Below, piece after piece: positions 857 through 5,124 of a stretch of 41,375 nucleotides of DNA. The notes under the pieces are model-generated. The model saw only the letters and a program-made list of their open reading frames with translations. It was not told where the DNA came from and did no database searches. Positions within the stretch are counted from its first letter, which is position 1. The number at the start of each line of letters is the position of its first letter. A program made the position numbers and the translations under genes. Source of the DNA: Dehalococcoidia bacterium (GTDB lineage: Bacteria > Chloroflexota > Dehalococcoidia > Bin125); assembly GCA_022822375.1 (NCBI GenBank), contig JAJEBU010000058.1, positions 1-41,375 on the forward strand, in the 5' to 3' direction.

Positions 857-1984
857 TTAGTTCGAGAACGCGCCGCGGATCCGCGAGAACACGCTGTCGT
901 CGCCCGATCCGCTGCGGCTGGTGGGATCATCCAGCACATCCGCGAGCTGCTCGAAGAGTTCTCGCTGCTCGGACGTCAGCTTGGTCGGGACGGCGACGTG
1001 GACCTGCACACGCAGGTCGCCGCGGCCGCGCCCGTTGAGGTGCGGCACGCCCTCGCCGCGCAGTCGGAACTCGTGTCCGTGCTGGGTCGCGGCCGGCACG
1101 TTGAGCGGTTGATGGTCGCCGGAGATACCGGGGATATCAACCGTCGCGCCCAGCGCCGCCTGGGCGACGTTGAGGTAGAGGGGCAGCAACAGGTCGTTGC
1201 CGTCGCGCAGGAACAGCTCGTGCGGACGCACGGCGATATCGACGTAGAGATTGCCGGCCGGTCCGCCGCGCAGACCGGCGTCGCCCTCGCCCGACAGCCG
1301 CATCTGTGCGCCGTCGCTGACGCCGGCCGGGATCTTCACCTTGAGTCGGCGGTTGCGTTGCTCGCGTCCGATTCCGCCGCATGCGGTGCAGGGACGCTCG
1401 ATCACCGAGCCTTCACCGTCGCACGGTTCGCACGGCGCGACGTTGACGAAGCGACCGAAGACGTTGGACTGCGTGCGGCGCACCTCGCCCGATCCACCGC
1501 AGACCTCGCAGGCGACGCGCTGGGTGCCGGGCTCGCCGCCGGAACCGCCGCAGATGCCGCAGTGTTCCAGCCGCGAGGCGCGAATCTCTTCCTCGCAGCC
1601 GAAGACGGCCTCGTCGAAGTTCAACTCGATCTGCAGCCGCAGGTCGCCGCCGCGAATCGGTCCGGCGGCGCGTCGTCCGCCGAAGAAGGCGTCGAAGATG
1701 TCGCCAAAGCCGCCGAAGTCGAAGCCCTCGAAGCCGGCGCCCTGCGCAAAGGCGCCGGTCGAGCCGTATTGGTCGTAGCGCGCCTTCTTGTCAGGGTCGG
1801 AGAGCACCTCGTAGGCGGCGCCGATCCGCTTGAAGGTCGCCTCTGACGCCTCCTTTTGCGCGGGGTCGGAGACGCGGTCAGGGTGATGCTCCATCGCCAG
1901 CTTGCGGAAGGCGCGGCGGATGTCGTCCTGGGAGGCATCGCGGGAGACGCCGAGGATTTCATAGAAGTCGTCAGATTGAACCAT
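857..1984 (-). CDS. dnaJ: Chaperone DnaJ (Hsp40, type I)
   Basis: Co-chaperone that delivers unfolded clients to DnaK and stimulates its ATPase. The 375-residue protein has the J-domain (about residues 6-72, with the HPD tripeptide in HHPDRV), a Gly/Phe-rich linker, four zinc-binding CxxCxGxG repeats (CGICGGSG, CEVCGGSG, CEPCDGEG, CTACGGIG) and the C-terminal client-binding barrels. Length and order are those of a full type I DnaJ. It is separated from dnaK by two plus-strand genes, so it cannot be read through from the CIRCE promoter in a simple way. No Shine-Dalgarno is evident before the ATG. A TACCCT hexamer (minus strand, 1991-1996) lies six bases upstream of the ATG, which would fit a leaderless start, but the -35 region is poor. 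Confidence 0.96.
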   Translation of the reverse strand: MVQSDDFYEILGVSRDASQDDIRRAFRKLAMEHHPDRVSDPAQKEASEATFKRIGAAYEVLSDPDKKARYDQYGSTGAFAQGAGFEGFDFGGFGDIFDAFFGGRRAAGPIRGGDLRLQIELNFDEAVFGCEEEIRASRLEHCGICGGSGGEPGTQRVACEVCGGSGEVRRTQSNVFGRFVNVAPCEPCDGEGSVIERPCTACGGIGREQRNRRLKVKIPAGVSDGAQMRLSGEGDAGLRGGPAGNLYVDIAVRPHELFLRDGNDLLLPLYLNVAQAALGATVDIPGISGDHQPLNVPAATQHGHEFRLRGEGVPHLNGRGRGDLRVQVHVAVPTKLTSEQRELFEQLADVLDDPTSRSGSGDDSVFSRIRGAFSN

Positions 1985-2074
1985 TTGGGTAGGGTATCGC
2001 GGGCGCGACGTTGCGGATAGTTGCCGAACGACACGCCGGTCGTCTCGATATGCTGGCCTCGTGGAGATGGCGTG

Positions 2075-2779
2075 ATGACCAAGCAGGTGCTCGGACGGGA
2101 CGAGGCGTTACGACTGCTGCGCGAGCACATGCCGGTGTTGCGCGAGCGCTTTGGGGTGACGAGCCTGGCGTTGTTCGGATCGACCGCCCGCGATGAGGCA
2201 TACGCCGACAGCGATGTCGATGTTCTCGTCGAGTTCGATCGCGAGCCCGATGCTTCTTGGGGAAGCTATGAGGCTCGGACGTATCTCTCGGAAGTGCTCG
2301 GTCGGCGGGTTGACATGGTCGAACGTCACCGAATGCGCAAGGAGTACCTGCCGTGGGTTGCGGCCGATGAGGTCGATCCGATGAATCCGAGGGAGCCCAT
2401 GCCGGGAGCAGCAAGACCAAAGCGGTGGGATGTCTACGTGCAGGACATGATCGATGCATCCCGCCAAGTTGTTCGGTACACAGAAGGGGTCAGCCGTGAC
2501 GACTTCTTCAGCAACAGTGAGAAACACGACGCCACGATCCGACAGCTGGAGGTGCTCGGCGAGGCTGCACACCGAATCTCAGCAGACGTACACGATGCCC
2601 ATCCGGAGATTCCCTGGCAGCTCGTGATTGACAATCGCAACTACCTGATTCACGGCTACGACGGGATCAAGCCTGACAAGCTCTGGAGCACGATTCAGGA
2701 GCACGTGCCGGCGTTGATTGCGAGGCTGACCGCGCTGCTCGCCGAGGCTCAAGCAGAGGTCGCCGACCTCGAAGAGTGA
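2075..2779 (+). CDS. MntA-HepT fusion (nucleotidyltransferase antitoxin joined to HEPN toxin)
   Basis: Single 234-residue ORF that joins two proteins normally encoded separately. Residues 1-100 are a minimal nucleotidyltransferase (MntA type) with GSx10DxD (G35 S36, D47, D49) and a third acidic residue D80 in RRVDMV. Residues 115-215 are a DUF86/HepT HEPN domain with the RNase motif Rx4HxY (R188, H193, Y195 in RNYLIHGY). In known pairs MntA AMPylates the HepT tyrosine to silence its RNase; all these residues are kept. The start at 2075 is chosen because GGAG precedes it (2063-2066); an in-frame ATG at 2021 has no better support. An internal in-frame ATG at 2399 is preceded by GAGGGAG and would give a free HepT of 126 residues. 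It sits between dnaK and dnaJ on the opposite strand and looks less GC-rich than its neighbours. Confidence 0.88.
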   Translation: MTKQVLGRDEALRLLREHMPVLRERFGVTSLALFGSTARDEAYADSDVDVLVEFDREPDASWGSYEARTYLSEVLGRRVDMVERHRMRKEYLPWVAADEVDPMNPREPMPGAARPKRWDVYVQDMIDASRQVVRYTEGVSRDDFFSNSEKHDATIRQLEVLGEAAHRISADVHDAHPEIPWQLVIDNRNYLIHGYDGIKPDKLWSTIQEHVPALIARLTALLAEAQAEVADLEE

Positions 2780-2826
2780 GTGGGCACCCGGCGAATCGCC
2801 CAGTGCGCTTTACACCTCGGGGGAGG

Positions 2827-2840
2827 ATGCTTCGAAGCAT
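2827..2840. repeat. 14-bp perfect palindrome downstream of the MntA-HepT gene
   Basis: ATGCTTCGAAGCAT is a perfect palindrome 47 bases after the MntA-HepT stop. It could be an operator half-site pair or the stem of a weak terminator, but there is no T-tract. Function unknown. Confidence 0.5.
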
Positions 2841-2909
2841 GGTGCGCTTACTAAGGCGATCCGAGGCACATGCTACGCTGGGCAGCTGAAGCGACCCGTG
2901 AGGCGACAC

Positions 2910-3224
2910 ATGTCCAAGCCGAGCAGTCGCATCGTGCGAACTGTGGTGCGAGAAGCGCTCGTTGGCGTGCTGGGAGTCGCCATCGGCTACTGCCTACTCT
3001 TGGGGTTCAATACGTTGGTCATGGGACGCGACGTCCCTGACGCGGCTTGGTCCGGGCTGCAAACCGTGGGCATCTTGATTGCGGTTCTCGTTCCCTTAGG
3101 GGCGTTGCGAGCTTGGCGCAGACACAGCCCTGTCACTCTCAAGCAATCCACGTACTTCCCCGCCCTGTTGCGCGATCGGCCTCAGAAGCTAGGCAAACAC
3201 ACCGATGTTCGGGATGCCCGCTGA
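2910..3224 (+). CDS. Small two-helix membrane protein, unknown
   Basis: I do not recognise this 104-residue protein. It has a basic N-terminus (MSKPSSRIVRTVVREA), a hydrophobic segment around residues 16-35 (LVGVLGVAIGYCLLLGF) and a second around residues 49-66 (GLQTVGILIAVLVPLGAL), then a basic cytoplasmic-looking tail. The ATG at 2910 is chosen because GAGG lies at 2900-2903; a GTG at 2898 is in frame. Its stop codon is one base from the stop codon of dnaK on the other strand, leaving no room for a separate terminator. It follows the MntA-HepT gene and may be part of the same insertion. It could be accessory or spurious, though the two clean hydrophobic helices argue for a real gene. Confidence 0.55.
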   Translation: MSKPSSRIVRTVVREALVGVLGVAIGYCLLLGFNTLVMGRDVPDAAWSGLQTVGILIAVLVPLGALRAWRRHSPVTLKQSTYFPALLRDRPQKLGKHTDVRDAR

Positions 3225-3225
3225 C

Positions 3226-5124
<1,899 letters not shown>

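Follow-up and report, generated by a model that had tools for sequence, protein, structure and literature searches.

How a toxin-antitoxin pair behaves once its two genes become one is the question raised by a locus of a Dehalococcoidia bacterium, in a window comprising the whole 41,375-nucleotide stretch of contig JAJEBU010000058.1 that was analysed. In the two-gene systems, MntA AMPylates the Rx4HxY tyrosine and thereby blocks the HepT RNase (PMC7641770; PMC11586414), and the solved MNT:HEPN complexes hold the partners at ratios of 2:6 (PMC7641770) and 1:4 (PMC11586414). Here, both partners lie in one reading frame, so that we ask whether the chain may still act as a toxin-antitoxin, how an active toxin would arise from it, and whether its two halves share one history.

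The fused gene and its insertion site

A single uninterrupted frame of 234 codons runs from the ATG at 2075 to the stop at 2777-2779, and its protein carries NTP_transf_2 (PF01909, residues 16-89, E 1e-12) together with HepT-like (PF01934, residues 125-218, E 6e-23), both exceeding the Pfam gathering cut-offs (Table 1). The first-pass annotation had described MntA and HepT fused in one ORF with their motifs intact, and it was right on both counts. Tyr195 is the predicted AMPylation site by homology to Y104 of S. oneidensis HepT (PMC7641770). The NCBIfam equivalog models for MntA and HepT (NF047752 and NF047751) score 39.2 and 30.3 bits, under their cut-off of 60, while the PADLOC candidate PDC-S09 is a match to the MNT half. 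Of the features by which type VII pairs are recognised, the locus thus has GSx10DxD and Rx4HxY, with one gene in place of two and equivalog scores under the cut-offs; since this single ORF is also fused in two congeners, we regard it as a fused variant of the type VII pair, which would work like the pair. In both halves pN lies well under pS, indicating purifying selection on the protein.

Table 1. Features of the fused locus, in coordinates of the window
Feature	Position	Strand	Basis
dnaJ, bordering the insertion site on the left	857-1984	-	Pfam DnaJ domains
GGAG, Shine-Dalgarno-like, with an 8-nt spacer to the main start	2063-2066	+	sequence; anti-SD pairing -7.1 kcal/mol
Fused MNT-HepT gene, 234 aa	2075-2779	+	open frame; Pfam; fused orthologues
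MNT half (MntA-like nucleotidyltransferase), residues 1-91	2075-2347	+	PF01909; AlphaFold2; VIA; pS equal to neighbours
GSx10DxD catalytic motif, G35-S36...D47-x-D49	2177-2221	+	sequence
Linker, residues 92-117, predicted flexible; recombination breakpoint at about 2340-2400	2348-2425	+	pLDDT 47-69; identity drop
GAGGGAG, Shine-Dalgarno-like, ahead of the internal ATG	2389-2395	+	pairing -7.8 kcal/mol; GAGG and 6-nt spacer
Free HepT (126 aa), if read from the internal ATG	2399-2779	+	ATG shared by the three fused orthologues; sequence only
HepT (HEPN/DUF86) half	2411-2776	+	PF01934; VIA matches to HEPN toxins; pS excess
Rx4HxY, R188...H193-x-Y195 (RNase site and AMPylation-site tyrosine)	2636-2659	+	sequence; homology
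Downstream segment up to the dnaK stop, unalignable to the sister species	2780-3225		identity back at 93% within dnaK
dnaK, bordering the insertion site on the right	3226-5124	-	ORF; tblastn in congeners

AlphaFold2 predicts two confident domains (mean pLDDT 88, with the MNT half mostly above 90) separated by a linker of low confidence at about residues 92-117, in a model whose pTM of 0.57 makes the arrangement of the domains unreliable. The best VIA matches of the HepT half are AMPylated HEPN toxins, led by 7ae6 (Z 12.8, rmsd 2.7, 120 aligned) and including 6m6u (Z 12.3) and 5yep (Z 11.6); although helical bundles score high by chance, these toxin rows exceed the unrelated ones, consistent with Pfam. 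Searched against the PDB as a single sequence, the HepT half gave no significant match. For the MNT half, VIA matched 1wot (Z 9.6) in one row only.

Within the genus, two congeneric species carry the same one-frame fusion at the same site, between dnaJ and dnaK and on the strand opposite to both, as in the window. Protein identity to the window's fusion is 79% in one of them (G007, or L047, identical to L003, Dehalococcoidia bacterium jk18x40bins.26) and 56% in the other (G008, or L048), and the three orthologues align without an indel through residue 228. Such conservation in three species rules out a sequencing artefact, which the first-pass annotation had named as a possible undoing of the fusion. 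The dnaK-dnaJ gap (1985-3225) is an insertion hot spot in the genus, and in eight congeners it measures merely 81-95 bp without any gene between. In the dnaJ tree, the window's genome (G000) and G007 are sisters with a support of 1.0, while G008 is left without a firm place, so that ancestral presence followed by losses and an old transfer both fit. In two further congeners the same gap holds unrelated DNA, 635 bp long in L102 and 1252 bp long in L104.

Matches to the fused protein occur in 132 of the 393 genomes of the class, nearly all of them as separate overlapping genes. In a collection of 99 distinct MNT-HepT pairs, drawn from a query-biased search and hence no census, about 90 are two overlapping genes, in agreement with the earlier description of the module as normally bicistronic, and nine rows are in one frame, counting one duplicate locus and two plasmid records. 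G022 holds an additional fusion. A second fused family is present on another contig of the window's own genome (C80:11213-11905; L083) as well as in G225 and G281 (L148, L149). The Rx4HxY motif is intact in every one of these fusions, that is, in the three orthologues, in G022, G225 and G281, and on C80. The C80 fusion is unrelated to that of the window, with GSx11DxD and RNVIAHQY as its motifs, and its congeners carry the two-gene form. On plasmid pUO1 (L112, NC_005088.1 40781-41461), where only the HepT part is annotated, an apparent fusion corresponds to two separate genes in the remaining listed plasmid records at 99% identity; it was therefore taken as a frame variant of a single record and left out of the fusion count, and a fused-looking Aeromonas plasmid record was set aside along with it. 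The gut phage MT835733 was rejected as a phage-borne fusion, its frame containing internal stops.

A possible internal start ahead of the HepT half

The ATG at 2399 is codon 109 of the fused frame and would give a protein of 126 residues, beginning where free-standing HepT proteins begin in the alignment. This ATG, the GAGGGAG upstream of it and the 126-residue HepT that it would encode had been pointed out beforehand, and they are present as claimed and conserved in three species: all three fused orthologues retain the internal methionine amid an otherwise divergent linker (NPREPM, NVESQM and NPRPYM), and all three place GAGG or GGAG with a 6-nt spacer before it. Computed with the usual 16S tail, which was assumed for this genome, anti-Shine-Dalgarno pairing at the internal ATG reaches -7.8 kcal/mol in the window and -6.4 and -5.9 kcal/mol in the other two species, against a median of -1.7 kcal/mol for 41 internal ATGs of neighbouring genes, 7% of which reach -6. 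The window's value is comparable to the -7.1 kcal/mol of the main start. Together, these features suggest internal translation from ATG 2399, as good circumstantial support short of proof. The internal ATG may also be a harmless relic of a two-gene ancestor, three species being few and the G225 and G281 fusions having only a GTG at the corresponding place in the linker.

Such an arrangement would resemble the Rpn genes-within-genes, in which an internal start yields a separate C-terminal protein and the C-terminal part is variable; unlike in Rpn, where the short product is the antitoxin, the short product here would be the toxin (PMC10327210).

Divergence of the HepT half from the sister species

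Nucleotide identity between the window and its sister G007 is about 92% across dnaJ and the MNT half, drops from about 0.9 to 0.7 at 2341-2400, and remains between 0.58 and 0.78 across HepT. Synonymous divergence (pS) follows the same division, with 0.251 in the MNT half and 0.758 in the HepT half (Fisher p 7e-10), compared with 0.252 in dnaJ, 0.217 in dnaK, 0.264 in grpE, 0.245 in hrcA and 0.235 in fabF. Thus, the MNT head is as old as the neighbouring genes, while the HepT tail is not. In the independent fused pair of G225 and G281, used as a control, pS is equal in both halves (0.34 and 0.35), showing that the test does not flag every fusion. Synonymous sites of the HepT half are saturated, which makes its dN/dS uninterpretable.

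As judged from these sequence comparisons, the HepT tail and the DNA downstream of it have been exchanged, relative to the sister species, by recombination behind a constant MNT head; a fused allele of a related but unsampled species is the most likely donor. The first-pass annotation rightly saw the fusion, and the replaced toxin half, which is invisible from the window alone, is the main surprise of the locus. Toxin and antitoxin are usually exchanged together, and a toxin tail replaced behind a constant head would be the reverse of that rule. It also raises the question of how tolerant a modifying antitoxin is, a tolerance that a purely binding one could hardly have.

In G008, the MNT half is 73-76% identical to those of the other two fusions and the HepT half 41-42%, which is lower than in almost any two-gene pair with a similar MNT identity. 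A foreign origin of the G008 HepT was nevertheless not upheld, since the HepT tree is compatible with the three fused HepTs forming a clade (AU p 0.89), and replacement is accordingly claimed for the window and its sister only.

Two minor observations concern neighbouring or comparable DNA. The segment that fails to align with the sister species holds a 108-aa ORF (2898-3224, plus strand) with a weak DUF6338 match (E 0.011, under the cut-off). Elsewhere in the class, a locus of G043 (contig C17, L055) carries two tandem MNT-HepT pairs whose MNT proteins are 69% identical and whose HepT proteins only 32%, a further hint that the toxin and antitoxin halves evolve or move separately.

A probable single-chain toxin-antitoxin and its alternatives

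On the sequence evidence, we consider the locus to be probably a single-chain type VII (MntA/HepT) toxin-antitoxin. Like SO_3166/SO_3165 of S. oneidensis (PMC7641770), it combines a GSx10DxD adenylyltransferase with an Rx4HxY HEPN RNase, places MNT before HepT, and has a HepT half with the predicted fold of 5yep and 6m6u; unlike that pair, it is one gene, with a 1:1 ratio by construction instead of 2:6, and no MNT alpha-4 helix is predicted for it, a flexible linker taking that place. Single-chain toxin-antitoxins are known to be functional, as in CapRel, which is also a phage sensor (PMC9712102), and in fused modules of the RelE/ParE family (PMC11980606). The window's protein shares with them the joining of toxin and antitoxin in one chain, whereas their domains are unrelated to its own and their toxins are neutralised by binding, not by covalent modification.

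The first-pass annotation had also held a fusion of the DUF86 type to be undescribed, a claim that fails, since HEPN-M/DUF86 is recorded as "occasionally fused to MNT" (Anantharaman 2013, Table 1, PMC3710099) and a HEPN-MNT fusion was named on pAgK84 (Makarova 2009, PMC2701414). The window's protein resembles these in having both domains in a single polypeptide. According to the former study, MNT-fused HEPN domains are typically without RNase residues and domesticated (PMC3710099), a tendency and not a strict criterion, from which the window's protein departs by its RNase residues, its HepT start signal and its recombined tail. A search of open-access papers found neither an intramolecular nor a fused active HepT/MntA. 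What is new, as read from sequence, is a conserved fusion with predicted RNase and acceptor residues intact, a retained internal start and a replaced toxin tail.

That the fused HEPN domain is likewise domesticated and no longer an active RNase toxin seems unlikely to us. This reading has the typical loss of RNase residues in its favour, along with the faster evolution of HepT than of MNT and the aminoglycoside nucleotidyltransferases that Foldseek aligns over the whole length (6xz0, 6un8); those alignments, however, have an rmsd of 8-13 A on a model whose arrangement is unreliable. Against it, none of the three orthologues has lost R188, H193 or Y195 (RNYLIHGY, RNYLIHGY and RHLIVHAY), nor have the other fusions, and the HepT start signal is still present. 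A neutral read-through fusion, in which the MNT stop was lost, the ordinary pair still works, ATG 2399 may remain the source of most HepT, and both the fusion and the internal ATG are incidental, is in our view quite unlikely. The genes of two-gene relatives overlap by a few bases, hence one small change would fuse them, as illustrated by the one-record fusion of pUO1, and ATG 2399 is no weaker than the main start; yet the protein has diverged by 44% while its frame has stayed free of indels and its linker has kept the same length.

The excess divergence of HepT could also reflect fast evolution in place or chimeric assembly of one draft genome, which we regard as improbable. Among known sequences, the HepT half of the window still has its closest relative in that of the sister, and vice versa (76% over 111 columns), and the clade of the three fused HepTs stands unrejected; the sister is a metagenome-assembled genome, and the window's own is a draft assembly in 158 contigs. 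Saturation of synonymous sites (0.76 against 0.25) is not, however, something that selection on the protein brings about. A chimera would have to be joined twice, in the linker and at the dnaK end, with both flanks matching at about 92%, and the pS test leaves the G225/G281 fusions, with their equal halves, unflagged.

In the single-chain toxin-antitoxin that we favour, the MNT head would be made and folded first. Reaching over the flexible linker (about 26 residues), it would AMPylate Tyr195, either in the same chain or in that of a partner, and the full-length protein would thus be born neutral. The first-pass annotation had expected AMPylation to be intramolecular; since the solved pairs are 2:6 or 1:4, transfer of AMP to a neighbouring chain is as possible as intramolecular transfer. 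Active HepT RNase would arise from initiation at ATG 2399, giving a headless HepT, or alternatively upon failed AMPylation, for instance at low ATP or after cutting of the linker. The fused chain alone forces a 1:1 ratio, and the internal product would therefore supply extra HepT or free toxin, permitting the excess of HepT over MNT found in the solved complexes. Exchange of the tail would shift the toxin's target or evade a phage inhibitor, the antitoxin's recognition of the general HepT fold being kept. Taken as a whole, a gene-within-gene type VII system, with a self-AMPylating protein born neutral, an internal free toxin and a swappable tail behind a constant, tolerant head, is a tentative reading that we hold to be rather unlikely. 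As a natural single-chain form whose linker could be cut and whose internal start could be removed, the protein makes AMPylation in cis or in trans directly testable, and likewise the surplus of HepT per MNT in the solved complexes.

The fused gene is antisense to grpE-dnaK-dnaJ, and transcripts reading through dnaK into dnaJ would be complementary to its mRNA, a position that makes a link to heat shock possible.
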